Translations under genes and position numbers: made by a program
Shown here: piece after piece, positions 12,414 to 24,662 of the stretch
How positions within the stretch are numbered: the first letter of the stretch is position 1
Layout of the letters: each line of letters begins with the position of its first letter
IMG/VR virus record: IMGVR_UViG_3300036827_000022
Span: 1 to 40,730 of that record
Direction: 5' to 3' (one strand)
DNA length: 40,730 nucleotides
DNA from: a virus
Notes under the pieces: model-generated
The model's database searches: none
What the model was told of the DNA's origin: nothing
Seen by the model: only the letters and a program-made list of their open reading frames with translations

Positions 12414-13178
12414 TCAATCTTGATAGAGATCATACACCTTGCCAGCCGAGTTCGCGTATGCTTCCCCTTCGATGTCGCAAATGAGATAGTCGGCGCGCTT
12501 GAACGGCAGGCTGAACTTGTTCGCTTTGCAGGCGTAGAGATGCAAATAGTTCGGAACGCTCGCCGTCAACTCTTGATACGTCTCAGCCACATAAACCTCG
12601 AAGGTTGGCGACCAGCCTTGCTCGTGATTCTGCACGGTGACGATGGTTCCGGTGGTGACGGTGTAGCCGTAAGAAATCAGGACTGCGAGACCAGCATCGG
12701 CGGCGGCGAACGTGTATGTCCCCGCTGAACTCATGTACTGGCCCGTGCTGGGGCTCACGGTGACTCGCTGCAGCGGTTGGCCGACTTGCGCAGCCGTGCC
12801 CGTAGCGTAGAAAACTCCTAAGTCCTTGTCGAACGTTCCGCTGTGCGTGACCGTGACCGTGTAAGGAGATGATGCAGGGATAGTCTCTGCTTCCTGAACG
12901 ACGATGGCATCGCCGCCCGTGCTCTGCGCTTCCCCTGCGAACATGTTATTGAACAGATCGATGTCGAAGCGGCCAGATCCCAGCTTCCATGTGGCTTTCT
13001 TATCGACCGTCGCCGTGTCGTCGGGATATTGGAGATTCGAACGCAATTCTTTGATGGTTCCGGCATTCTCGAAGTTGAAGTCTTGGATCGAGCCGGGGAG
13101 ACGCGGCGAACTCGGCGTTGCGAGGTTCCCGCCCAGCGGAACGATGAACACGCGGCCAGTGCCGATTTGTATTCTCAC
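12414..13178 (-). CDS. Major tail tube protein
   Basis: A 254-residue beta-rich protein lies directly before the tail chaperones, where the tube protein belongs. It has tube-like features such as GSIQDFNFENAGTIKELRSN near the N-terminus and the acidic C-terminal LICDIEGEAYANSAGKVYDL. A central insert of about residues 95-170 (TVTHSGTFDKDLG to AGLAVLISYGY) looks like an extra Ig-like surface module. The start is GTG 13176-13178 with AAGGAG 7 nt upstream. The gene is immediately preceded by copy A of the repeated two-hairpin element, consistent with special control of an abundant structural protein. Confidence 0.85.
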   Translation of the reverse strand: MRIQIGTGRVFIVPLGGNLATPSSPRLPGSIQDFNFENAGTIKELRSNLQYPDDTATVDKKATWKLGSGRFDIDLFNNMFAGEAQSTGGDAIVVQEAETIPASSPYTVTVTHSGTFDKDLGVFYATGTAAQVGQPLQRVTVSPSTGQYMSSAGTYTFAAADAGLAVLISYGYTVTTGTIVTVQNHEQGWSPTFEVYVAETYQELTASVPNYLHLYACKANKFSLPFKRADYLICDIEGEAYANSAGKVYDLYQD

Positions 13179-13196: not shown

Positions 13197-13256
13197 AAAA
13201 AAAAGAGGCCAGCCAGGGCGTGAGCCCCAACTGGCCTCGGATTTCTTCCGTCAGCC
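13197..13256 (-). terminator. Repeated two-hairpin RNA element, copy A (upstream of tail tube)
   Basis: On the coding strand the order is GGCTGA (13251-13256), a short hairpin with arms CGGA/TCCG (13238-13250), then a 32-nt hairpin (13206-13237) whose invariant outer arms are AGGCCAGTT and GGCTGGCCT and whose apical arms are GGGGC/GCCCT with loop TCAC. A run of eight T follows. It lies between the tail-terminator stop (13266) and the Shine-Dalgarno of the tail tube. It looks like an intrinsic terminator, but shares exact blocks with two other copies. Confidence 0.85.
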
Positions 13257-13265
13257 GAAACTAGA

Positions 13266-13724
13266 TCAGATGCCTACCAAAACCGCGATTGGTATTAACA
13301 GTGCGCACTGCTGATCGAGAATTCCGGTATCTTCGAGCACGTCTCCGTCGATCCACGCATTGATTACCAGGCCGCCCAAAGTTTGCGCCTCTCCGTAAGG
13401 TCCGGAGCGCATGACGCCAACGATTGCTTTGAGCGCAGCATTGAGTTGCGTGGCAGGGATGGCAGACGGTATCGCATCGGCCCGAATGTACACGAGAACC
13501 CGGAAATGCAACTGCCATTTTTCTAAACCGTGTGCTTGATTTTGAACTACCGATTGACCGAGCTGCACGAGGCCGAGATATGGTTGATCTGCCTGGTTAA
13601 CTTTTTCTGGCAGCGCGCCTTTGCGGTCGTAGGTGTTGAACGCGAATCCGCTGGTCTGCAAAAGATTGAACAGCGCGACCGCGATTGTCTCGGGATCGAA
13701 CTCCGGGAAGGGATGACTGCTCAC
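13266..13724 (-). CDS. Tail terminator / tail completion protein
   Basis: A 152-residue protein (start SSHPFPEFDPETIAVALFNLL) lies between the HK97-gp10-like neck protein and the tail tube. This is the standard place of the tail terminator that caps the tube and joins it to the head. The fold cannot be proven by eye, but the VRVLVYIRADAIP-like strand followed by a helix (TQLNAALKAIVGVM) fits that family. The start is GTG 13722-13724, overlapping the previous stop (GTGA). Confidence 0.75.
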   Translation of the reverse strand: MSSHPFPEFDPETIAVALFNLLQTSGFAFNTYDRKGALPEKVNQADQPYLGLVQLGQSVVQNQAHGLEKWQLHFRVLVYIRADAIPSAIPATQLNAALKAIVGVMRSGPYGEAQTLGGLVINAWIDGDVLEDTGILDQQCALLIPIAVLVGI

Positions 13725-13948
13725 TTCGATCTCCGCAATGCGTTGCGACTCGTGATTGCTTTGAACTTGTCATCAAATTCCACTAAACACGAATTCATAG
13801 AGCCACGAGCGAGGACTCTGCACATTTGGCCTTTGCGTCCCATGCGGTTCCAGCGATAGATGTACCAGACCGCATGGGGCCTCGGAATTTTGACGGGCTT
13901 GGGTAATATTAGTCCCGCTGGTGCGCTTTGGTTTTCAAAGTAGCCCAT
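13721..13948 (-). CDS. Small hypothetical protein in the neck gene block
   Basis: This 75-residue basic protein (MGYFENQSAPAGLILPKPVK start) contains HAVWYIYRWNRMGRKGQMC. I do not recognise the family. It overlaps the tail terminator gene by 4 bp (GTGA) and follows the HK97-gp10-like gene by 15 bp, which supports it as a real member of the head-tail joining operon. GTGAG before the ATG is only a weak ribosome binding site. Confidence 0.65.
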   Translation of the reverse strand: MGYFENQSAPAGLILPKPVKIPRPHAVWYIYRWNRMGRKGQMCRVLARGSMNSCLVEFDDKFKAITSRNALRRSK

Positions 13949-13963
13949 TGGTTCTCACGAGCT

Positions 13964-14473
13964 TCATTGTACGAGCGCCGTCACTTCCGCATTCAGTTCT
14001 TCGATGATCTGCGCCTGCATGTCGTCAAGCCCTTGCTGCATGAAGGGCCGCGCCTTTAGGCCGGGATGTGTGACGCTACGCACTATGATTCTCTTGCCGT
14101 CTATCAGGAAACTCAAAGCCTTTTTGTTGAAAGGCAATATCTGGAAGCTGTGCGCGATGCCCGCGTGCTGCACGGCAGCGTAATCTACTGCAGCTCCTGA
14201 TTTCAGAGTTACTTTGGTCGTGCGCGGCCCGCCTGCCTGCACTTCCCCGTGGATGATGGTGCCGTCTACTTCTGCGGGAATGGCTCGCACGGATGCTGCG
14301 ATATTCGGCGCGCCTTGCGGGAACATCGCGGGGATTTCTTCGCCGACGATCTTCGATTGCAGCTTAAACATGAGCAGCGTCATTTTCTCTGTGAGCGCGG
14401 CGATGATCTGCGGACCTTTGGTGCGCAACCGCTCGATGTTATCGGGCGTTTGATTTATCTTGATTCGGAACAT
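13964..14473 (-). CDS. HK97 gp10-like head-tail joining protein
   Basis: This 169-residue protein carries the HK97 gp10-type ending: VDYAAVQHAGIAHSFQILPF, then HPGLKARPFMQQGLDDM. Proteins of this family act at the neck, completing tail attachment. The N-terminal helix (MFRIKINQTPDNIERLRTKG) is also typical. It sits between the connector and the tail terminator. A small frame (14455-14610) overlaps its start by 19 bp. Confidence 0.88.
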   Translation of the reverse strand: MFRIKINQTPDNIERLRTKGPQIIAALTEKMTLLMFKLQSKIVGEEIPAMFPQGAPNIAASVRAIPAEVDGTIIHGEVQAGGPRTTKVTLKSGAAVDYAAVQHAGIAHSFQILPFNKKALSFLIDGKRIIVRSVTHPGLKARPFMQQGLDDMQAQIIEELNAEVTALVQ

Positions 14474-14610
14474 TCCATTTCCATTCCTGTGCGGGTCATA
14501 AGGATTACTCTCGGAGGACGTTTAGGCTCGTAACGGCGGCTGTCTCTGAGTAGTTCAGGGAAATAAGTCTGGAAGCGCCGACTTGTCCCGCGAACGTCGT
14601 TGTTAAACAT
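14455..14610 (-). CDS. Possible 51-residue small protein
   Basis: The frame starts at ATG 14608-14610, immediately after the TGA of the next upstream mini-ORF (TGAGGATG junction), and overlaps the HK97-gp10-like start by 19 bp. The product is strongly basic (TSRRFQTYFPELLRDSRRYE). Coupled translation is plausible, but a GAGG lies too close to the ATG to act as its own ribosome binding site. It may instead be leader sequence for the gp10-like gene. Confidence 0.35.
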   Translation of the reverse strand: MFNNDVRGTSRRFQTYFPELLRDSRRYEPKRPPRVILMTRTGMEMECSESR

Positions 14611-14612
14611 CC

Positions 14613-14705
14613 TCAGGTAGTCTGACGCGGTGGCAGCGGATAACCTCTTAGACCTTGAAGGAATCCGTGGACGACGCGGCCGATGTAGTTCGCTATTCTG
14701 CACAT
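14613..14705 (-). CDS. Possible 30-residue mini-protein
   Basis: ATG 14703-14705 is preceded by GAGAGGAGAACGCA, a good Shine-Dalgarno at about 6 nt. The predicted peptide starts MCRIANYIGRVVHG and ends at TGA 14613-14615. It fills the gap between the connector gene and the downstream frame. Family unknown. It may be a genuine microprotein or a translational-coupling leader. Confidence 0.4.
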   Translation of the reverse strand: MCRIANYIGRVVHGFLQGLRGYPLPPRQTT

Positions 14706-14717
14706 TGCGTTCTCCTC

Positions 14718-15401
14718 TCAAGCAACTCTCCTGTCGTAATAGTGAATTGTTCGCTCGTCTTGCGGCTCCATCTCCCAAGTCGCATAGCTCACGGTTCCGG
14801 CACCCGCCGCCATCGCCTGAGAGCGCAGTCCGATCCAGTTTCTCTTTTTGTAATTCAGGGCCACAGACCGGCGCGCAGCCATTTCCAAATCGAATGGAAC
14901 CGCGGCGAATCCCGCCGAGTAAACGATCTCGACATTCTGCACGCCGTTGCAGAATCCCGGTCCTTGCGCGCGGAAGTTTCCGCGCCCTCCCTGATATGGA
15001 TAATTTTGGAAGGTGGCGACGGTGGCAGAGTATCCGCCGCGAATGGAAATGAATCTCTTGTCCTGGTCTACCACGAAGCCCCACACGTTCAGAGAAGTCG
15101 ATTGCGGGATGACTGAACCGTTCACGTTGACTGAGGAAACGGAGACGATGGGCCAGTTGCGAATGGGCTGCCGGAGCGTCCCTGAGCCGTCGTAAAATTC
15201 GTCGTAGTTGACAGGCGTGACGAACGGCGAAGCAGCGGGAATAGAACCGTCAGCGGGCCCGCGCCCGGTGAGATGCAGAACGTACGATGAAAAGGCCGTG
15301 ATCGCGTCTTGGATGGTTTGGTCATCGCTCGTGCTCGCGCCGACTTGCGCCCAACTCTTGACGTTTGCGACTGTCGTCAGATCAATGGGGTTGGTCGCCA
15401 T
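14718..15401 (-). CDS. Head-tail connector (gp6-like)
   Basis: A 227-residue protein (MATNPIDLTTVANVKSWAQV start) has the layout of phage head-tail connector proteins: an N-terminal helix with DDQTIQDAITAFSSYVLHLTG, a beta insert (QPIRNWPIVSVSSVNVNG) and a C-terminal helical part with PFDLEMAARRSVALNYKKR. It follows the capsid region and precedes the gp10-like neck protein, as expected. No clear Shine-Dalgarno precedes ATG 15399-15401. Confidence 0.8.
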   Translation of the reverse strand: MATNPIDLTTVANVKSWAQVGASTSDDQTIQDAITAFSSYVLHLTGRGPADGSIPAASPFVTPVNYDEFYDGSGTLRQPIRNWPIVSVSSVNVNGSVIPQSTSLNVWGFVVDQDKRFISIRGGYSATVATFQNYPYQGGRGNFRAQGPGFCNGVQNVEIVYSAGFAAVPFDLEMAARRSVALNYKKRNWIGLRSQAMAAGAGTVSYATWEMEPQDERTIHYYDRRVA

Positions 15402-15493
15402 CAGTTAGAGGGCGGGCAGCATTCGCGCGGTTCCTGCTTCCCCGCCCCGGAATCTCCTTTCGCAGAACTCCGGCGAATATAACACGAAACCCT

Positions 15494-15712
15494 CTAACGC
15501 AAAGTCTTATTGACCGCCATCACAATGAACCTGCGCTGGTCGCTCTTATAGCTCAACCCATTTCGGGTGAATATCTTGTGCAAGCGCCACTTTAGCGATC
15601 GATCCGGCAAATCGAGCCGCTTGGAAATGTCTTTATTGCAGAGTCCTTCGGCTAGGCAGGCGATGATCCGCCGGTCATGGAATCTGGGCGCTAGCTTCAT
15701 TTGAGAAGGCAC
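15494..15712 (-). CDS. Small LuxR-type helix-turn-helix protein
   Basis: This 72-residue protein consists almost only of a GerE/LuxR-type DNA-binding domain: RIIACLAEGLCNKDISKRL, then WRLHKIFTRNGL. There is no receiver or sensor domain. GTG 15710-15712 has GGAG 5 nt upstream; ATG 15700 is the alternative. It overlaps the end of the secreted FN3 protein gene by 38 bp and precedes the connector. A stand-alone transcription regulator inside the structural operon is unusual and may control late or host genes. Confidence 0.75.
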   Translation of the reverse strand: MPSQMKLAPRFHDRRIIACLAEGLCNKDISKRLDLPDRSLKWRLHKIFTRNGLSYKSDQRRFIVMAVNKTLR

Positions 15713-16574
15713 TCTCTCCGCTAGAATTAACGCCAGTCACGACGTAAAAGTACGTCAGTCCGGGCTGGACAGTGAGGTCCGTATAAGTGAGGGGCACGGC
15801 GGTGCCATAGCTCCCGATCTTGGTGAAAGGCCCGCTCGACGCAGTCCCTCGATACACGTTATAACCGCTAATCGGCGCTGCGCCTACGGGGATGGAGGAC
15901 GCCGCCCAGGACAGGGCGACGCTGTGCGTGACCGGAGGAGCAGCGGAATTAAGAGTCACCGTCGCACTGATGACACTCAAAGTCGGCGGCTGAGGCGGTA
16001 TGGCAGGGGTGATGTCGAAGAATATATCTGACAGGACCCCGTTTGAAACGGTGGGAGTGAACTGGACATTGACGTTCCCCGAAATATCCCAGATAAAGTA
16101 AGTCCCGTTCTGGAAATTGGACGCGACTTCCGTATCGAGCTTCACCCCGTTCGCGGCATTCGTTAGGGTGATCGTCTCGGAGCGCCCCTGCCTATCCCAG
16201 TCTAGGAGATAAAAGGAAAGCCGATGGACCTTGCCGTCCGTCAGATTGGCCGAGAAAGTAAAACCAGGCGTCCCGTTGGTGTTGTACCAGCACGAAGCCT
16301 GCGTTGTCGCGGCCCCAGTTGAACTTTGCGCCGCCCGCACGTCCGTGGTGCTAGAACTCCACTGGTAATAGCTCCCTGAGATGTTCCCGGTCGCGGCGTT
16401 GTACGACAGATAGGAAGGGGCAGACTTCGTATCGCCTGCCAGGAGCACGCCGTCCTTCCCGTATTTTCCGATCCAGTGGCCCTGTGTGGCCGTGTCCTGT
16501 CCGACGAACTTCGCGCTGGTTTGCGCCATCGCGGGTGCGGCCATAAGCAGGAGAGCCAATGCGATTTTAATCAT
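15675..16574 (-). CDS. Secreted FN3-domain protein downstream of the capsid gene
   Basis: I choose ATG 16572-16574 because AAAGGAG lies 11 nt upstream and the product then starts with a Sec signal peptide (MIKIALALLLMAAPAMAQ). The 299-residue protein has an N-terminal domain with QGHWIGKYGKDGVLLAGD, CWYNTNGTPGFTFSANLTDG, RLSFYLLDWDRQGR and NGTYFIWDISGNVNV, which I have seen in secreted Acidobacteriota proteins. It ends in an FN3 domain (GYNVYRGTASSGPFTKIG). The longer frame to 16646 is not supported. The gene may encode a capsid decoration or an exported adhesin. Confidence 0.85.
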   Translation of the reverse strand: MIKIALALLLMAAPAMAQTSAKFVGQDTATQGHWIGKYGKDGVLLAGDTKSAPSYLSYNAATGNISGSYYQWSSSTTDVRAAQSSTGAATTQASCWYNTNGTPGFTFSANLTDGKVHRLSFYLLDWDRQGRSETITLTNAANGVKLDTEVASNFQNGTYFIWDISGNVNVQFTPTVSNGVLSDIFFDITPAIPPQPPTLSVISATVTLNSAAPPVTHSVALSWAASSIPVGAAPISGYNVYRGTASSGPFTKIGSYGTAVPLTYTDLTVQPGLTYFYVVTGVNSSGESAFSNEASAQIP

Positions 16575-16602
16575 TCCCTGAACGGCTCCTTTGCACAAAT
16601 AG

Positions 16603-16668
16603 AAAAGGGCGACGAGAATTTCTTCCGGCCGCCCTTCGTTGACCATCCTTCGCCTGGGGTGAGGCGAA
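16603..16668 (-). terminator. Double hairpin after the major capsid gene
   Basis: Five nt after the capsid stop the coding strand forms a perfect 7-bp hairpin (TTCGCCT-cacccc-AGGCGAA, 16649-16668). A second hairpin follows (AAGGGCG/CGCCCTT, 16605-16636, 18-nt loop) with a short T-tract. The next gene's AAAGGAG follows. The layout resembles the repeated two-hairpin element, but the sequence is different. It probably is a partial terminator. Confidence 0.55.
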
Positions 16669-16672
16669 CTTT

Positions 16673-18568
16673 TTACGCGCTGCCGAGAATGCCGGTGCGA
16701 ATCGTCAGCAGCCCGGGGATGTAGTTTCCGTACGTCTCATGCACGTACGTTCCGAAGGTCCACGCGCGTGTCGTCACCGGCCACTCGATCCCGTAGTAAT
16801 CCCGCTGCACAAACATTCCGCTGACGCCCGGGATGCGCGAGTGCGGATAGGGATTTTGGGTCTTGCGATAGATTATGGTTCCCGGCGGCAGCATCGGGTG
16901 GATGTAGATCGGCAATTCCTCAGATCCCGTGGCCTTCATGCTGTACTGCGACTTGTAGCCGCTCACCACGAAGCCGCCGAGGATGTTGCCCTGCGCGTCG
17001 CGGCTCACTTCGAACCGATAGGCCGGAACGCCCGAAGTGTTCTTGAACAGCGCCTGTGCGATCGAGAGCTTGGCGTCCACCGAAGCCCAAATCTCATCTG
17101 CGACGGTCTGGAAAGACCCCCACTGCGCTTTGAGGTCGTATTCGATTTCCGCCACGGCAGGCACGGAGCTCGAGGAGTTGGTCATGCCGGGAGTCAGCAA
17201 GCCGGTGTTCGTCACGCCAGTGATCGCGCTCTTGGAAGTCAGGTCGCTCATGTTGATGAACGATCCGTTGTTCACGCACCAGGCGATGATCCCGGAGAAG
17301 TCGAGAGCCTGTTGGCTGTTGTCCGTGCTCAGACCGGTAGCCGCTGCGGTGTAGCTGGCATTCGCTGTGCCGTTCGCGAGATAGACGAAAGGAACAGTGG
17401 TGATGGCCACGAGGCTGGCATTGGCAGTCGTCGGCGTGGTCGCGTCCGTGACGTCCACGAACCATGCCCATGCGAATACGCCCTTCTTCGGCAGGACGTC
17501 GGCCAGCACGTACGGATAGCTGCTCGAGGCTGAAACCACGTTCGAGGCCGCGCTCACCGCGCCCATGCCGCCCTTGATTGGATCGGTCGTGCCATCGGCG
17601 TTCGTGCGCGTGAAGCTGGGAGTCAATCCGCTCGTGACTGTCGGCGCTGCCTGATAGCCGAATTGCGCGTTGTTCGGGTTGCCGAGCATGGTCAGCTCGA
17701 CGACGCGGACAGATACGTTCGTTCCGCCGCCGCCGAATCCGGTGCCGCCATCGGTCACGAGGCCAGCCGCTCCGCTGGGAAGTGCCGTGACTCGCGCTAC
17801 GGTCGGCGTGTTGGCTGTGCCGAGAGCGAATCCGTTGAGGCCGGCCGCAGTGCCAGCGTTGCCGCCCCACATGAGAGATTCTTCTTGGAGCCACAGTTCG
17901 TTAGCGCCGCGGATGTGCTCGTCGGCTACGTTATCGGTGTAGCCTTCGCCAGCAAACTCAGCCGTGAAGGTAACAGAGCGTTCGACGCCCAGTTCGGAGT
18001 ATGTCGCAATGGCGTTGTTCTCGTTCGGGGTTGCATACGCCACGCGCTCGCCTTCTTTGGCGCCAGCGTAGGAAGTTCCCGGCCCGAGGGAGGTGTACTT
18101 CCAGTTGACCGCCGTGCCATATCCGGCGTTGACTTTGCCCCAGCGCGGCAGAGAGTTGCGCAGCGGCGTGTTGAGCGGATAAATCAGGTACGCAGGTCCG
18201 CGCAGATCGTAGAAGTTGTATCCGAGAGCGGTTGAGACCCCGGCCTTCATCATCGCTTCGCGGTAGTCGGAGACGAGAGCCTTCAGCAGTTCGTTGGCGC
18301 GATCGGCGCGATCGTTGAACTCGCTCTCGATCTTTTTCAGGTCTGCTTGCCCGATATAGCCTTTGTTGACGATCCACTCGTTGATGCCGTCGGAGGTGCG
18401 CTTGAGAGCGCCCATGCTGCGCTTGTATTTGCGGAGTTCAGCTTTGCGGTCCTCGGTCCACGCCTTCAGGACTTTTTCGGCGACGACAAACTGCTGCGCG
18501 ATCTTGGCATCTCCGAGAGGTCCAGAGTAGGGAGCGAGTTGACCGCCGCCGCGTATTCCTGCGTACAT
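16673..18568 (-). CDS. HK97-fold major capsid protein
   Basis: This 631-residue protein has an N-terminal helical region (residues about 25-100, LKAWTEDRKAELRKYKRSMG) resembling the delta domain, then capsid-like core segments (SLPRWGKVNAGYGTAVNWKY; NVADEHIRGANELWLQEESL). It ends with GTIIYRKTQNPYPHS and DYYGIEWPVTTRAWTFGTYV, matching the end of HK97-fold capsids. It is much longer than the usual 300-400 residues, with a Ser/Thr/Gly-rich insert of about residues 250-420. ATG 18566-18568 has AAGGAG 6 nt upstream and copy B of the repeated element directly before it. Confidence 0.88.
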   Translation of the reverse strand: MYAGIRGGGQLAPYSGPLGDAKIAQQFVVAEKVLKAWTEDRKAELRKYKRSMGALKRTSDGINEWIVNKGYIGQADLKKIESEFNDRADRANELLKALVSDYREAMMKAGVSTALGYNFYDLRGPAYLIYPLNTPLRNSLPRWGKVNAGYGTAVNWKYTSLGPGTSYAGAKEGERVAYATPNENNAIATYSELGVERSVTFTAEFAGEGYTDNVADEHIRGANELWLQEESLMWGGNAGTAAGLNGFALGTANTPTVARVTALPSGAAGLVTDGGTGFGGGGTNVSVRVVELTMLGNPNNAQFGYQAAPTVTSGLTPSFTRTNADGTTDPIKGGMGAVSAASNVVSASSSYPYVLADVLPKKGVFAWAWFVDVTDATTPTTANASLVAITTVPFVYLANGTANASYTAAATGLSTDNSQQALDFSGIIAWCVNNGSFINMSDLTSKSAITGVTNTGLLTPGMTNSSSSVPAVAEIEYDLKAQWGSFQTVADEIWASVDAKLSIAQALFKNTSGVPAYRFEVSRDAQGNILGGFVVSGYKSQYSMKATGSEELPIYIHPMLPPGTIIYRKTQNPYPHSRIPGVSGMFVQRDYYGIEWPVTTRAWTFGTYVHETYGNYIPGLLTIRTGILGSA

Positions 18569-18586
18569 GGTGTTCTCCTTGACCGC

Positions 18587-18646
18587 AAAAACAAAAAGGC
18601 CAGCCGGGGATCGCTCCCCAACTGGCCTCTGAACTTTCAGTCAGCC
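18587..18646 (-). terminator. Repeated two-hairpin RNA element, copy B (upstream of major capsid)
   Basis: The coding strand reads GGCTGA (18641-18646), hairpin 1 with arms CTGA/TCAG (18629-18640), then the 32-nt hairpin 2 (18597-18628) with the same outer arms AGGCCAGTT/GGCTGGCCT but apical arms GGGGA/TCCCC closing a GNRA-type GCGA loop. A T-tract (TTTTTGTTTTT) follows. GGCTGA begins 4 nt after the stop of the 51-residue gene, and the T-tract ends 8 nt before AAGGAG of the capsid gene. Confidence 0.87.
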
Positions 18647-18650
18647 TTGA

Positions 18651-18806
18651 TTACTGGAACTTTATTTTCTGCGTCACGATCTCAGCGGCGCACGGTACCC
18701 CGTCTTGAATCTTTAGCTTCTCGATCTCTCCGAATTTCAGCTTTTCGCAGAACTTGATGAAATCGGCCCAGCGGACTTTCTTATCCGCGAACTGCTCGCC
18801 CTCCAT
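18651..18806 (-). CDS. Small 51-residue hypothetical protein before the capsid gene
   Basis: ATG 18804-18806 lies 10 bp after the stop of the protease-scaffold gene and has AAGGGTG about 4 nt upstream. The product starts MEGEQFADKKVRWADFIKFC and is charged and probably helical. It lies between the protease-scaffold and capsid genes, where small head proteins often occur. I do not recognise the family. The stop abuts the repeated RNA element. Confidence 0.7.
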   Translation of the reverse strand: MEGEQFADKKVRWADFIKFCEKLKFGEIEKLKIQDGVPCAAEIVTQKIKFQ

Positions 18807-18815
18807 CGGTCACCC

Positions 18816-20069
18816 TTAGACTGGTAGCGGATCGGCCTGCTGGATCTGTTCAGCCTTCTTGAGTTCGGCATCGCGCGGCACGGCGAACAGTCGGGCCGGT
18901 GAAGGAGCCGGAAGAGCATCGACCGCTTTCTTCACCGCATCGGCGATCAGCTTCTCGGCGTCGGCCTTCGTCATGGAATCGGATGTACCATTCGTCGCGG
19001 CGGCTGCGGCGGCTGCTTTGGCTGCGGCATCTTTCGCGGCAGCGTCGTCAACTGGTCGAAGTTCATCGAGCAGCGCCTTCAGCGCCTTCTCCGCTTCCTT
19101 TTCGTCCGAGCCCATCACGTCCTTAGCGGCCTTCATGCATTTGCCGAGATGAGTAGACATTTTCTCGTGCATTCCGCCGAGCGCCGTATGCGCCTTGTGC
19201 ATGGCGTCGTGATGCTCCATCGCGGATTCCATGTGGGCGTGCAGCGCGGCCAGACCCTTCTTGGCTTTGGCGAGATCGTCGGAGGGCACGAACTGCTTTT
19301 TGAATTCGTCCTCGCTGATGCCGAGGGCCGCTGCGCATTTCTTGATCTGTTCAGGATTCATGTTCGCTCCTGTTGCTGCGCTATGTTTTGCCATCAAACT
19401 ATCGACCAGCGCACGCAATTTTTCTACGTGTGTGTCTAATTCAGAATCACTCGCAAACGTGAAGGTCTCAAATTCCTTCGAGAGGTCGTCCATGAGTGCG
19501 GCAGCCTTCGGCTTTTCAAGAGATTGCGTTAGTGCTTTAGTGATCCGCTCGACATCCGCGTCGGTGAGCTTTTGCTCCGGCGTCTTGTACATCTCGACCG
19601 TGCCGTCCGCTTTGGCGTACTCGATGAATGCTCCCGGCAGACACGGGTTATCGACGAGAGATACTTCGCCAGGCTGCGCGGTGTAATATTTTTTGGCTCC
19701 TTCGGTCCATCGCTTGACATACTTTCCGCCTTGGCTGAATCCGAGAAGAACTTTTTCCGTGACCTTCTTCCACGTGGAATCGTCCACGACTTTGAAGGCC
19801 ATGCGGATTTGTTTCTTCGTATCGTCGAAGTCAATCGTCTTTCCGGCGCCGGCTGCGTGCAGTTGGTGCATCTCGCGCAGCGGCATAATGTTCTGGCCGT
19901 CGGAGGCTTTGCCTAGCTCATCGTTAACCGCTTTGTATTCTGGTTTGGTCGAATCGTAATGGCAGGTCTCGCCGTCCTTGTCCTCGGCCTCTGCCGTGAC
20001 GAGTCCGTAGACGAGGTGCTGCTCAAGATCGACTTTGACGAGGGGGAAAAACTTTAGGAACTTGTCCAC
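18816..20069 (-). CDS. XkdF-like prohead protease fused to a scaffold domain
   Basis: A 417-residue protein. The first 180 residues resemble XkdF-like putative serine proteases of phage heads (VYGLVTAEAEDKDGE, HQLHAAGAGKT, then GEVSLVDNPCLPGAFIEYAK). The remainder is Ala/Lys/Glu-rich helix with a His-rich stretch (HAHMESAMEHHDAMHKAH), fitting a fused scaffold. The likely start is GTG 20067-20069. The probable job is capsid maturation, with the C-terminal part acting as an assembly scaffold that is then cleaved. The position before the capsid gene agrees. Confidence 0.82.
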   Translation of the reverse strand: MDKFLKFFPLVKVDLEQHLVYGLVTAEAEDKDGETCHYDSTKPEYKAVNDELGKASDGQNIMPLREMHQLHAAGAGKTIDFDDTKKQIRMAFKVVDDSTWKKVTEKVLLGFSQGGKYVKRWTEGAKKYYTAQPGEVSLVDNPCLPGAFIEYAKADGTVEMYKTPEQKLTDADVERITKALTQSLEKPKAAALMDDLSKEFETFTFASDSELDTHVEKLRALVDSLMAKHSAATGANMNPEQIKKCAAALGISEDEFKKQFVPSDDLAKAKKGLAALHAHMESAMEHHDAMHKAHTALGGMHEKMSTHLGKCMKAAKDVMGSDEKEAEKALKALLDELRPVDDAAAKDAAAKAAAAAAATNGTSDSMTKADAEKLIADAVKKAVDALPAPSPARLFAVPRDAELKKAEQIQQADPLPV

Positions 20070-20154
20070 GCGCGCAGCATACCAGATGCGGCTATCGCTT
20101 TCTGTTCGCTGTGCTCAATTAGGAAACTCCGCGCTTCACGGTCTCGCGTAAGTT

Positions 20155-20694
20155 TTACGGCAACGCATTTATCGCAGCTCCAATTATAGGTGCTTCGTAC
20201 GTCGTCACCCCCGCTTCCGTGGGGTGAAGTTTATCGGAATTGAACCAAGTCGCATTAGTCGAACATCCATCGCACCCTAGGGGCGTTCCAGTGAAGTCCG
20301 CAATGCCGTCCGCGCCCGCTGAGTTCGCTAGAATTAGCGCGTTGTAAGAATTCTTCTGCGTCTCTTCCCCTGCCCGGCTGAGCATCGTCGGCACAATCAC
20401 CTTCCAACCTACTGCGTGGCGAGCAGCCACGTAGCTGGTCATATCTGCGTACACAGTGGATACTGACGTTCCAAAAAAGAAATCATTTGTTCCACCCCAA
20501 ATAACCACCACATTCTTCTGCCCAGTAACATAAAGACGGTCGATATTCGCCGGCGCATTTGCCAGCATCGTTGCCAAAGTCTCTCCGGGAATCCCCCAGT
20601 TGATGATGTTCCACGCACCATTGAGCGCCAGATAGCTCGTATATGGAGTAGGAGCCAAATCTCCAGACGTAATTGAATCGCCATCCGCAACCAT
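20155..20694 (-). CDS. SGNH/GDSL-type hydrolase next to the fibre gene
   Basis: With ATG 20692-20694 the product has 179 residues and no signal peptide. The ATG lies 13 nt after the stop of the fibre gene and has GGAG immediately upstream; the longer frame to 20763 overlaps that gene. The SGNH blocks are visible: GDSIT with S7, WGIPGETL, GGTND with N70, and SDKLHPTE with D154 and H157. Such enzymes remove acyl groups from sugars. With a fibre-like neighbour it may deacetylate the host surface glycan during adsorption, but this is inferred. Confidence 0.87.
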   Translation of the reverse strand: MVADGDSITSGDLAPTPYTSYLALNGAWNIINWGIPGETLATMLANAPANIDRLYVTGQKNVVVIWGGTNDFFFGTSVSTVYADMTSYVAARHAVGWKVIVPTMLSRAGEETQKNSYNALILANSAGADGIADFTGTPLGCDGCSTNATWFNSDKLHPTEAGVTTYEAPIIGAAINALP

Positions 20695-20707
20695 GTCTCC
20701 AGGAAGG

Positions 20708-22276
20708 TCAATTAAACACCATGTAACTAACGCAGGCCGGATTGGTCGCGAGCGTTGAACCAATCTGGATCGTAAAACTCGCTCCGGCGCTGCGGGCCGT
20801 CACGACAGGCTGCGTAAGAGTAGCTAGCGTGGTATTGCAGGTAACTCCGGAAATCGTCAGGCTCTCATCGATCGTTAGAACGATCCGGCTATTCGCCGTA
20901 ACTGCGGTAGTATTTACTTGCAGCGTGGGAGTCGAACCTGTCGGGATGGCGACAGCCCCCGATGCCGCCGATCCGCAGACGGCAGGAGATGCCCCATTCG
21001 CGCAATTCGTTTCCGTTGAGTACGATTTCGCGGAGAAATTCGTCTGTGCCGATCCATCGGCTAATTCAGCCTGGAGGCCGGTGCCGTTCACCTGAAATGC
21101 TGGGAAACTACTAGTAACTCCCCCGAAGTTAAGCCGAGTAAATCCTGTTGCGGCATTATTGAAGAATGTAGCGATTCCGTCGACGCTCGATCCCCACTTC
21201 GATCTAGTGTTGATAACAAACTGTGTCGTCGCTCCTGCTGTGACGGATCCGGACGAAAACAGCGTCTGGGCGCTTAATTGGCCTCCAGCTTGGAGAGCGA
21301 ATAAAGAACTTCCTCCGTTAGCGTGGAAGTCGAAAATCAACGCATTAGCGGAGAGTCCGGAGCAAGTATTGATTCCAAATACTGTCCCGTTCGTGTTCCA
21401 CGTTGACGGCTGCGTTGACCCGGCGCAATTCAGATAGTAGAGCGGGACGGTCGTCGTACCGCTTCCACCTGAAATTGGAGCACCGCTCAAAGTCCAAGCG
21501 GGAGCGGAGAGTGCTCCATTTTGAGCCGACGTGAGAGTTCCCGGTAACGTAAACGCCGTCGGGATTGACAAAGTAGGATTCGCTCCGCCCGTCGAGGAAA
21601 CTTGGTTGGCGGTGCCGCTAACGGAAGCGACGCCGCTGGCGCTACTGCACCCGCTACCGGCATTTGACAAATCACCGCACGCAATTGAGACATTTGAAGA
21701 TAGAGCGTGACCGGCAACAGTCGTCGAGGTAGGCACGGCACCGAGATCCGAATTTGTAACGGTCACGTTCCCGTTGAGCGCGTGCCCATTGACGGTAATC
21801 GTGTTCGGCACGGCTCCGGTTACTTGATCCACCGTGTAATCTCCGGACACGGAAACGACTATCCCCGTGCGCCCGAATACGGAGGAAACCGCACCGGCTG
21901 CTCCGGTCGGCGCAGTCGAATAAAGAATCGTCACTGTTGCCGTGCCGCTGGAATAGGACGATGGGCGGACGCGGAAGACATTCTGTGCGGTGATCGTATA
22001 GGTCGTCACGCCTGGCGATGTGATGCTCGAACCTGCCGAGGTCCACGTGTTCCCGCTGTCGGCCGATTGCTCTGGAGCAAGTGTTGCGCTGAACGTATTA
22101 CCCACGGTCACTGCGACGCTTGATGCGTTTACAGGAAGTGTCTGAATAACACAGGAGGAGTTAGATGTTGCCTGACACGGACCTGCCGCGGTGATGTTGC
22201 CGGTGATCGGGTTGACCTGGCCGCGCAGCAAGGTCGGACAGCAGAGCAGGAACAGCAGCCAAAGTAATCGTTTCAT
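20708..22276 (-). CDS. Signal-peptide fibre-like protein between portal and capsid genes
   Basis: ATG 22274-22276, preceded by GGAGGAG, gives 522 residues starting with a signal peptide (MKRLLWLLFLLCCPTLLRGQ). The central part has fibre repeats such as VFGRTGIVVSVSGDYTVDQV and VNGHALNGNVTVTNSDLGAV, familiar from phage tail fibres. The C-terminus is a Ser/Thr-rich beta region (SRIVLTIDESLTISGVTC). The longer frame to 22312 runs into the repeated RNA element, so I reject it. A Sec signal on a fibre is unusual: it may be a secreted accessory adhesin or a host-derived leader. Confidence 0.84.
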   Translation of the reverse strand: MKRLLWLLFLLCCPTLLRGQVNPITGNITAAGPCQATSNSSCVIQTLPVNASSVAVTVGNTFSATLAPEQSADSGNTWTSAGSSITSPGVTTYTITAQNVFRVRPSSYSSGTATVTILYSTAPTGAAGAVSSVFGRTGIVVSVSGDYTVDQVTGAVPNTITVNGHALNGNVTVTNSDLGAVPTSTTVAGHALSSNVSIACGDLSNAGSGCSSASGVASVSGTANQVSSTGGANPTLSIPTAFTLPGTLTSAQNGALSAPAWTLSGAPISGGSGTTTVPLYYLNCAGSTQPSTWNTNGTVFGINTCSGLSANALIFDFHANGGSSLFALQAGGQLSAQTLFSSGSVTAGATTQFVINTRSKWGSSVDGIATFFNNAATGFTRLNFGGVTSSFPAFQVNGTGLQAELADGSAQTNFSAKSYSTETNCANGASPAVCGSAASGAVAIPTGSTPTLQVNTTAVTANSRIVLTIDESLTISGVTCNTTLATLTQPVVTARSAGASFTIQIGSTLATNPACVSYMVFN

Positions 22277-22286
22277 CTCTCCTCCC

Positions 22287-22348
22287 AAAAAACAAAAAGG
22301 CCAGCCGAGCATTTCTGCTCAACTGGCCTCAGGTATTTCCTGTCAGCC
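22287..22348 (-). terminator. Repeated two-hairpin RNA element, copy C (upstream of fibre)
   Basis: The coding strand reads GGCTGA (22343-22348), hairpin 1 with arms CAGG/CCTG (22330-22342), and the 32-nt hairpin 2 (22298-22329) with outer arms AGGCCAGTT/GGCTGGCCT, apical arms GAGCA/TGCTC and a GNRA-type GAAA loop. A T-tract (TTTTTGTTTTTT) then runs into GGGAGGAGAG of the fibre gene. GGCTGA starts 7 nt after the stop of the portal-MuF gene. Confidence 0.87.
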
Positions 22349-22355
22349 TAAACTT

Positions 22356-24662
22356 TTATCCTTTGAAGCCGACGGCTTGCAAGATGCAATAGCACGCCGG
22401 ATGCGCCGTCGGATACTTGTCGCCGCTCGGGAACTCAGCGCCGAGAGCACGCTCCACACCCGCATTGCTTTCGCACACTGGGCAGGGATCAGGTCCAAGC
22501 GCCAGCCACTTCGTCTTTGTGACCAGTCCGCTTTGCTTCCACACTTCGAAGTTGGCGCCGACCTGTGCCCGTGAAATCTCGCTCTTGGCGATCATGGTCG
22601 CGCGCGAGTCGCTGAAAATGTCTGCGTTGCGAATGTCGTCTATGACTTCTGAGAATGGCGTCTTTTCCGCGAAGGCGTTCTTGACGATCTCGCGCAGCCG
22701 GTCGCGCGTCGTGTCGCTGATGGCCCACTTCGCGTTTGGATTCTTTATCAGTTCTCCTGAATCGTTGTACTTCATGCCTACGAGTTCCGCCGCGCGCTTG
22801 CTCGCATATTCCTGAGCAATCGTATTCACCGAAGACAGCAGGCCAGCGTCAGAGAGTTCGATCTGCAGGAACGCATCCGAGATTCCCGACTGCCCCGCTT
22901 GCTCAAGCGATACACGCGTTTCCGCCGGCAGCGTCAGCCAATCCGCCTCGACCGCATGATAGATAGCATCGGCTGTCGTATCTGACTCGTCCTCTTTAGC
23001 CTTGCGCATCTTCATCAATCGGCTGGCCTCGACTGCGGCTTTTTCCTTCTGCCGCATGAACACTCGCGAGAGAGCCGATTCGAGACGCGCTTGCGCTTGG
23101 CGCGTGTCCGGCGTGCGGCGGTCGGGATCAATGCGCGGAGTCTTGCGCTTCTCGACTGATTTGCCGTTGCCGCCCATCGGCTGCGGAGGCGGCTTGGCCG
23201 CGAACATATCTTTTGCGTGCGCGACTTGATCTCCCAAATCGACAGGGACCGTTCCGGTAGCCGTAGTGATCATGAGCTCGGCTGCGTCGCCACCCACTTC
23301 ATCCAAGCCGCGGGCCGTCCGCGCTTCGTCGCGAGTGATGATTCCAGAATCCACATCGTTCTTGTCCGCTGTGGACCGCTTGACGACATCGAGTTCTTTC
23401 TGCGCGTCGAAGGTAAGCTCGTACTCGTTAAATCCAAAGCCGAAGTGCTTGGCGATGATCCAATTCACCATTCCCGCCGCAGACAGAGCTACCGGCATCG
23501 TGCCTTCTTCTTCGGCTGATTCTTGGTTCGACTGCGCGCTCGCCCGGTTCATTTGCTTTAGGATTCGTTGCGCTGAGACGCCGACACCGTAGAATATTTT
23601 GCGGATGTGCATCTCATCGAATGGATCTGCGAACAGCTTTTCCTTGGGATTGACGAACTGGTCGCCGCTCGAAGCTCCGGGCTGCGCTCGATCGACGAAT
23701 CCCTGAATCAGCCGAATGGTCCCTGATCTCTTGAAAGCCTGACCGCTCAGTTCTGCCTCGATAGTTTTCTGCGTGGCGCTGATCTGGTCGGGCGAAACAT
23801 TCGGCGGAACGACATGCAGGAGATCAGGCATTTGCCCAGAGATGTACCACGCGAGAACGAAGTCGAGCCGCGCTTGCCCGAGTTGAATTTCTTCTGCGTT
23901 TTGCTCGGTCATGCTCATACCGTACAGAAAGCTAGAGACCGTGTTGCGCGGCACGATGTTTCGCGGCCGGTAGACTAAATCATTCATCGTAAGATTCGTG
24001 AAGGGTATTCCGCCGATGGTCGAAGGCGTTCCGCTCCATAGTTGCTGATAGGCCCACGGAGGATTATCGGTCGGCTGCGGCGTGTAGCCCCATTCGTCGA
24101 CCAGCCGCGTAATAAACGCGCCGTCGATCACTCGCAACTGACCAGGCTTGCCGCCGCGGGAGCGCCTCACCAGCACCGAAGCGGCGTCAATTGTGTAAAC
24201 GTATTCCAGCCATTCGCGTATCCACGTGGCCCAGTCATGCTCGCCGTCCGGGCAGTCGAATAAATCGTTGAGCATCTTGAGTGTGGTGTCGCCCTTGCTG
24301 CGCTTATCCACGTCCGAGTTTTTCTCTCCGGGTTTCTTCTTGGCGCGGATCTGACGCGGCAAGTTGGCGATGATGTCCTTCGCGTTCTCGATGGCGATGC
24401 GATGTAGCGGATAGAGTGAGAGGCTGCGGAGTTGCTGCGCGGTGAACTCCGCATCGGGCCGCGGCGTGAACACCATATTTTGGTTCACCCAGTATTGCCA
24501 GCCGCGAGCTTCGGTTCCTGGCGGCGCGATCGGCGCAACGGAGATGCCCGGCCCGAAGTAATTGGACATGTCACCATTCGACATTGCTGTCTGCGGGTTG
24601 TGGCGCGAGACGAGACGCGATAGGCCGGTCAACTGGCGAACGATTGCGGTGGATGGTGCCAC
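22356..24662 (-). CDS. Portal protein fused to a MuF-like minor head protein
   Basis: This 768-residue protein holds a portal domain (about residues 50-480; IAIENAKDIIANLPRQIRAK, then VLAWYISGQMPDLLHVVPPN and DEMHIRKIFYGVGVSAQRIL). A linker and a C-terminal MuF/SPP1-gp7 domain (about 520-768) follow, with ISRAQVGANFEVWKQSGLV, CPVCESNAG and the closing HPACYCIL motif. Portals form the DNA gate; MuF proteins are minor head proteins. Fusion in one chain is less common than separate genes. The GTG 24660-24662 start lacks a clear ribosome binding site; ATG 24584 and 24569 are alternatives. Confidence 0.9.
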   Translation of the reverse strand: MAPSTAIVRQLTGLSRLVSRHNPQTAMSNGDMSNYFGPGISVAPIAPPGTEARGWQYWVNQNMVFTPRPDAEFTAQQLRSLSLYPLHRIAIENAKDIIANLPRQIRAKKKPGEKNSDVDKRSKGDTTLKMLNDLFDCPDGEHDWATWIREWLEYVYTIDAASVLVRRSRGGKPGQLRVIDGAFITRLVDEWGYTPQPTDNPPWAYQQLWSGTPSTIGGIPFTNLTMNDLVYRPRNIVPRNTVSSFLYGMSMTEQNAEEIQLGQARLDFVLAWYISGQMPDLLHVVPPNVSPDQISATQKTIEAELSGQAFKRSGTIRLIQGFVDRAQPGASSGDQFVNPKEKLFADPFDEMHIRKIFYGVGVSAQRILKQMNRASAQSNQESAEEEGTMPVALSAAGMVNWIIAKHFGFGFNEYELTFDAQKELDVVKRSTADKNDVDSGIITRDEARTARGLDEVGGDAAELMITTATGTVPVDLGDQVAHAKDMFAAKPPPQPMGGNGKSVEKRKTPRIDPDRRTPDTRQAQARLESALSRVFMRQKEKAAVEASRLMKMRKAKEDESDTTADAIYHAVEADWLTLPAETRVSLEQAGQSGISDAFLQIELSDAGLLSSVNTIAQEYASKRAAELVGMKYNDSGELIKNPNAKWAISDTTRDRLREIVKNAFAEKTPFSEVIDDIRNADIFSDSRATMIAKSEISRAQVGANFEVWKQSGLVTKTKWLALGPDPCPVCESNAGVERALGAEFPSGDKYPTAHPACYCILQAVGFKG

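Follow-up and report, generated by a model that had tools for sequence, protein, structure and literature searches.

The viral contig IMGVR_UViG_3300036827_000022, analyzed here over its 40,730 nt (the window), carries three copies of a short RNA element between genes of its head-tail module. All three lie on the minus strand, as do the coding sequences of the entire module, and each presents in the same order the block GGCTGA, hairpin 1, a terminator hairpin and a T-tract (Table 1). The copies begin 4, 4 or 7 nt after the preceding stop codon and end just 5' of the ribosome-binding site of the next gene. Here, we show computationally that they belong to an RNA family with two competing, covarying folds, found in phages, Bacilli, Clostridia, Desulfuromonadia, Acidobacteria, Planctomycetes and Nitrospirae, and that this family is genetically linked to genes for small DUF2292/YezD-like proteins and precedes sulfur-metabolism genes in bacteria and virion genes in phages. 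It is probable that the phage elements are members of a widespread family of attenuators and that the DUF2292/YezD-like protein is their antiterminating partner.

Table 1. Element copies, their alternative hairpins and the associated genes in the window (CM, covariance model; MFE, minimum free energy; ORF, open reading frame; pLDDT, predicted local distance difference test).
Feature	Position	Strand	Context or basis
Element copy 1	13197–13256	−	Between 13266–13724 and the major tail tube gene 12414–13178; CM match 58.6 bits
Element copy 2	18587–18646	−	Follows the 51-aa ORF, precedes the putative major capsid gene; CM match 64.2 bits
Element copy 3	22287–22348	−	Between the portal gene and 20708–22276; CM match 64.8 bits
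Copy 1 antiterminator hairpin, GGCU-GA-CGGA/UCCG-A-GGCC	13233–13256	−	MFE of isolated 5' part −10.3 kcal/mol
Copy 2 antiterminator hairpin	18624–18646	−	−9.1 kcal/mol
Copy 3 antiterminator hairpin	22325–22348	−	−10.5 kcal/mol
Copy 1 terminator hairpin, then T-tract	13206–13237	−	Terminator scan
Copy 2 terminator hairpin	18597–18628	−	Terminator scan
Copy 3 terminator hairpin	22298–22329	−	Terminator scan
51-codon ORF, DUF2292/YezD-like, LKFGEIEKLKIQDGVPCAAEIVTQKIKF, candidate trans-acting partner	18651–18806	−	Homologues followed by the element; PF10055 match below threshold
Major tail tube protein, 254 aa, downstream of copy 1	12414–13178	−	AlphaFold pLDDT 82.7; Foldseek to tail tube protein 8xkn_B, E 9.9e-13
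Putative major capsid protein, 631 aa, downstream of copy 2	16673–18568	−	Gene order; phrog_13692 (unknown function)
Tail-like/lyase-like protein, downstream of copy 3	20708–22276	−	phrog_23426 tail protein, E 1.1e-6; PF24146, E 1.5e-4, under cut-off
Portal protein, upstream of copy 3	22356–24662	−	phrog_2662, E 1.2e-59

An initial annotation of this DNA had described the copies as a two-hairpin RNA with compensatory changes, and its coordinates, strand and sequence blocks were exact when re-checked. Hairpin 2 has the annotated 14 pairs in 32 nt, with tandem U-G pairs and a 4-nt loop. The hairpin 1 arms are CGGA/TCCG, CTGA/TCAG and CAGG/CCTG, the T-tracts are present, and two of the hairpin 2 loops are indeed of the GNRA type (GCGA and GAAA, the loop at site 1 being TCAC). 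The compensatory change is borne out as well: across the three copies and the two of the nearest relative all cells pair, and six pairs vary on both sides (1.9 ± 1.0 in shuffles). Two observations go further than the annotation. Hairpin 2 is a real intrinsic (rho-independent) terminator, with a G+C-rich hairpin directly followed by a T-tract in all three copies, and these were top-ranked among terminator-like sites in a blind scan of 10–29 kb of the window. In addition, GGCTGA contains the 5' arm of an antiterminator, and a competing second fold can arise when the blocks called invariant pair with one another.

When isolated, the first 23–24 nt of each window copy fold as this antiterminator (−9.1 to −10.5 kcal/mol). 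In it, GGCU pairs with GGCC from the 5' arm of the terminator, and a GA/A internal loop separates this helix from hairpin 1. The full elements fold as an AGGCC...GGCCU-UUUU terminator at about −30 kcal/mol. The antiterminator, GGCU-GA-[hairpin 1]-A-GGCC, and the terminator are mutually exclusive, which accounts for the invariance of the blocks GGCTGA and AGGCC. Bacterial copies behave likewise in folding, the 5' part alone giving the antiterminator and the full element the terminator.

Covariation is seen in both folds. Among 95 copies, the outer helix of the antiterminator changes from GC to AU at 2-24 and from CG to UA at 3-23, while U or C faces G at 4-22; permutation P was 0.0004 for 2-24 and <0.0002 for 3-23 and for 1-25, in alignments fitted to the covariance model and with kinship among copies not fully removed. 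In the same copies hairpin 1 is 98.9% paired, with all four pairs varying on both sides. A6, A21 and G22 are invariant or nearly so, and the terminator stem covaries too among the aligned copies. The elements thus show the two mutually exclusive folds, each with covariation, that characterize a terminator/antiterminator attenuator; their layout is that of an attenuator equipped with a recognition hairpin, and an RNA on/off switch of transcription is well supported. Attenuation by ribosome position was rejected, as the distance from stop codon to GGCTGA varies from 4 to ~58 nt.

Hairpins and a U-tract just upstream of the ribosome-binding sites of virion genes would also suit a 5' mRNA stabilizer, an RNase processing site or a translation enhancer serving strongly expressed capsid and tail genes, in which the U-rich tract aids ribosome binding. 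Such roles do not predict two mutually exclusive covarying folds, however, and bacterial copies may stand 100–360 nt from the next gene; we consider them very improbable. As a target of a host ANTAR protein, the element would share with the known targets (EutV, NasR, AmiR) protein-controlled antitermination at a dual-hairpin leader RNA, with two tandem hairpins of which the second overlaps the terminator (PMC3369931). ANTAR target RNAs need hexanucleotide loops with A1 and G4 (PMC3369931), whereas the hairpin 1 loops, over 84 distinct copies, almost always have 4 or 5 nt. The element lacks A1/G4 hexaloops, its antiterminator includes the conserved GGCU arm and no ANTAR gene is implicated, so that this assignment deserves next to no credence.

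Copy 2 starts 4 nt after a 51-codon ORF, and this arrangement recurs in other phages. Scanning with the element pattern picked up a single copy in an unrelated phage (L095), where a 76-aa homologue of the ORF immediately precedes it. A search with the ORF only, blind to the RNA, reached a further phage lineage (L192/L193) in which the element also stands directly behind the ORF (51.9 bits), with a hairpin 2 too diverged for the initial patterns. Every ORF homologue from the RNA-blind search is followed by the element, in two unrelated phage lineages; no homologues of the small ORF were found in cultured phages or plasmids. Among relatives of the window, phages without the ORF are also without the element, and one of them (G006) lacks the small ORF and copy 2 together. 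In other phages (IMG/VR contigs L209, L212 and L210) the element precedes a phage sigma-factor-like gene, and in L209 and L212 it lies behind a DUF2292-like ORF. Genes downstream of phage copies encode portal, protease, major tail protein or tail tube, and sigma-factor-like proteins.

The nearest contig, IMGVR_UViG_3300037258_000066, whose portal is 96% identical to that of the window, has the element at sites 1 and 2 and none at site 3, where the portal stop and the next ATG are 3 nt apart (L185:16009–16069 compared with window 22276–22356). Between the site 1 orthologues, U-G becomes U-A, G-U becomes A-U and C-G becomes G-U in apical and wobble pairs, and every pair is kept. In more distant relatives, whose 631-aa protein is 33–83% identical, the element upstream of the gene for that protein is absent.

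Small ORFs with a terminator that are present or absent between homologous structural genes are familiar as phage morons or mobile terminator cassettes. The same presence/absence pattern is seen here, with copy 3 absent in the nearest relative and the ORF plus copy 2 absent in G006. Together with the strong terminator hairpins and T-tracts, it would fit plain intrinsic terminators that end a small, moron-like gene, have been copied into other intergenic gaps and give partial read-through at a fixed level. Neither GGCTGA nor hairpin 1 would be required for simple termination, yet when viral contigs and bacterial genomes were scanned blind with a looser pattern, 19 of the 117 distinct matches had a 4-bp hairpin 1, against 1.6 expected from shuffles. 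The antiterminator helix moreover covaries across phyla, and the terminator is, unlike that of such cassettes, a switch shared with bacterial regulons. We therefore regard plain terminators as a rather improbable explanation.

Many matches of the looser scan adjoin DUF2292-like ORFs. In Acidobacteria, Verrucomicrobia and Chromatiales these ORFs are of the divergent, phage-like type; those beside the element in Nitrospirae, Geobacter, Auribacterota and Oscillospiraceae are of the classic YezD type. An ORF scan of genome contigs gave no match at its E-value, although the later DNA pattern scan did reach homologues in Acidobacteria. PF10055 (DUF2292) was found in none of 100 genomes of the order of a Bryobacteraceae metagenome-assembled genome (MAG), consistent with their ORFs being of the divergent phage-like type. 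Loose terminator patterns were abandoned as a search route, returning mostly chance inverted repeats.

The linkage was tested with a covariance model of 29 copies (R3), whose E-values are rough, against PF10055 searches blind to the RNA. Among 117 genomes of Desulfuromonadia, the class of a Geobacter MAG, PF10055 occurs in 33, the element in at least 34 and both in at least 28; these element counts are probably lower bounds, at most 44 candidates having been scored per genome. The element was thus matched in 28 of 33 PF10055-positive and 6 of 84 PF10055-negative genomes (Fisher p=2.9e-16). At least 23 of 47 DUF2292 genes in this class have an element no more than 400 nt downstream on the same strand, and 78 of 121 elements, among the matches listed, lie within 90 kb of a DUF2292 gene. 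In Bacilli, a same-strand element stands 9–234 nt downstream of the DUF2292 match at 21 of 30 loci, and four more were recognized by eye. One Oscillospiraceae MAG has the element both before and after yezD. The densest example is a Geobacter MAG contig (CALMBF010000155.1, 103–181 kb, L416–L420), with 12 elements and two DUF2292 genes within 77 kb. This cluster also carries nitrogenase-like, sulfurtransferase and corrinoid-protein genes and is a candidate sulfur-salvage island. The gene that comes after the ORF-element pair in Acidobacteria encodes a secreted-looking, repeat-containing protein (L278:5141–6148, L306:1907–2890 and L315:3309–4292).

Genes after bacterial copies include metK, ssuD-like, ssuE, sulfurtransferase and NifB-, NifX-, NifH- and NifD/E-like genes. 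We read these targets as mostly sulfur acquisition, while the nitrogenase-like genes could belong to other pathways. A regulon of this kind, with several copies per sulfur cluster and a conserved internal loop that could bind a ligand, would also be expected of a metabolite-sensing, riboswitch-like attenuator of sulfur metabolism. DUF2292 would then be merely a co-regulated first gene, and phages would have captured a yezD-like gene plus element as a cassette. The sulfur riboswitches of Rfam (SAM, SAH) are likewise attenuators of sulfur genes, but the window elements have no gathering-level match in Rfam. The recognition part, of ~23 nt, is also small for an aptamer, and phages share with the sulfur regulon only the DUF2292-like ORF, their virion and sigma-factor targets offering no obvious reason for sulfur sensing. 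We hold this explanation to be unlikely, while giving it some weight.

Bacterial and phage settings share the RNA and mostly a DUF2292-like gene, and therefore we infer that DUF2292 is the trans-acting partner. In the emerging RNA, the first 23–24 nt (N-GCY-GA-[4-bp hairpin]-A-GRC) would fold as the antiterminator, which contains the terminator 5' arm. Left unheld, it would give way to the far more stable terminator, and transcription would end short of the next gene; a factor that held it would let polymerase continue into that gene. Recognition probably occurs at the asymmetric GA/A internal loop, which hardly varies, and the small DUF2292/YezD-like protein, encoded by the most constant neighbor of the family, probably holds the hairpin. 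In the window phage, the 51-aa product of 18651–18806 would act on copy 2, adjacent to its own gene, and in trans on copies 1 and 3, and the capsid, tail-tube and tail-like genes would be fully read only after it accumulates. Transcription control in cells and antitermination as its sign are inferences, and binding by the protein is suggested by linkage only.

Several observations weigh against this role for DUF2292. The window ORF scores 14 bits against PF10055 (E 0.039), under the Pfam gathering score of 22 bits, and is called DUF2292-like only on that account; three of four aligned phage ORFs likewise match below the cut-off. A profile comparison of the phage ORFs with DUF2292 gave E 0.001 and a probability of 22%, where shuffled columns reach 11%, which is no more than suggestive of homology between the phage ORF and classic DUF2292. 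No DUF2292-like ORF lies within the available fragment around the phage copies L252, L221 and L210. In Desulfuromonadia, six PF10055-negative genomes have an element match, and that search placed an element next to no more than about half of the DUF2292 genes. Finally, the sulfur regulon could be read equally by a metabolite. We give about even chances to the broader proposal that DUF2292/YezD is an unrecognized class of very small RNA-binding antiterminators with a dedicated RNA box, controlling a regulon for sulfur acquisition in several bacterial phyla, and that phages took over protein and RNA together to set the timing of capsid, tail and sigma-factor genes. If true, it would add a layer of control to sulfur genes and a new means by which phages gate late genes. 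The candidate regulator role is the first testable function for the conserved small family DUF2292/YezD, for which no functional study was found in the literature searched.

Antitermination switches are already known as a kind, and that of BglG, SacY and LicT has a similar layout. Their ribonucleic antiterminator (RAT) is a small hairpin with an internal loop that overlaps the terminator 5' arm, and in the bgl operon the order is element, regulator, element, target, with bglG flanked by its own elements. The element studied here is like RAT systems in layout only, with an internal-loop hairpin over the terminator arm and targets downstream, and its position on both sides of yezD in the Oscillospiraceae MAG resembles the bgl operon. 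The RAT hairpin differs in sequence from the element, and a partner of 50–70 aa would leave no room for CAT and PRD domains; the sulfur or phage virion targets differ as well.

The initial annotation had also favored a structured RNA with a function over a chance terminator, and knew of no family to which it belongs. It had named in advance a lack of homologues, a lack of wider covariation or an Rfam match as grounds for giving this up. Homologues occur far beyond the contig, most of the family being bacterial, covariation extends over 95 copies, and Rfam 15 gave no match above the gathering threshold on the window; at a relaxed threshold only chance-level miRNA and sRNA scores appeared. The Nitrospirae yezD copy (L301) had no match at all in Rfam 15. 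The RNA family is apparently undescribed, with one possible precedent, an attenuator cluster, left unnamed, that precedes a sulfonate transporter operon of bacilli and is put forward as a candidate in one sentence (Naville and Gautheret, 2010, PMC2965389). It is likewise a premature terminator tied to sulfonate genes in bacilli, the section in question makes no link to DUF2292 or phages, and it may be the same element.

The genes around the copies in the window are those of a head-tail module. The order of genes, with the portal upstream of the 631-aa gene and a head-tail adaptor downstream, suggests that the 631-aa product is the major capsid protein, and relatives of this protein sit in the head module of Brevundimonas phages. 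Structure gave no confirmation: its AlphaFold model has a pLDDT of 30, and a profile search of solved structures returned no match. Window positions 71–40710 and the nearest contig (G007, L184–L186) are collinear but circularly permuted, and ~4.4 kb of the latter has no counterpart at the window ends; therefore the window is probably an incomplete genome. Tail-spike/lyase-like and lipase-like genes (window 20155–22276) lie between the portal and the next head gene, an unusual spot for tail-type proteins.
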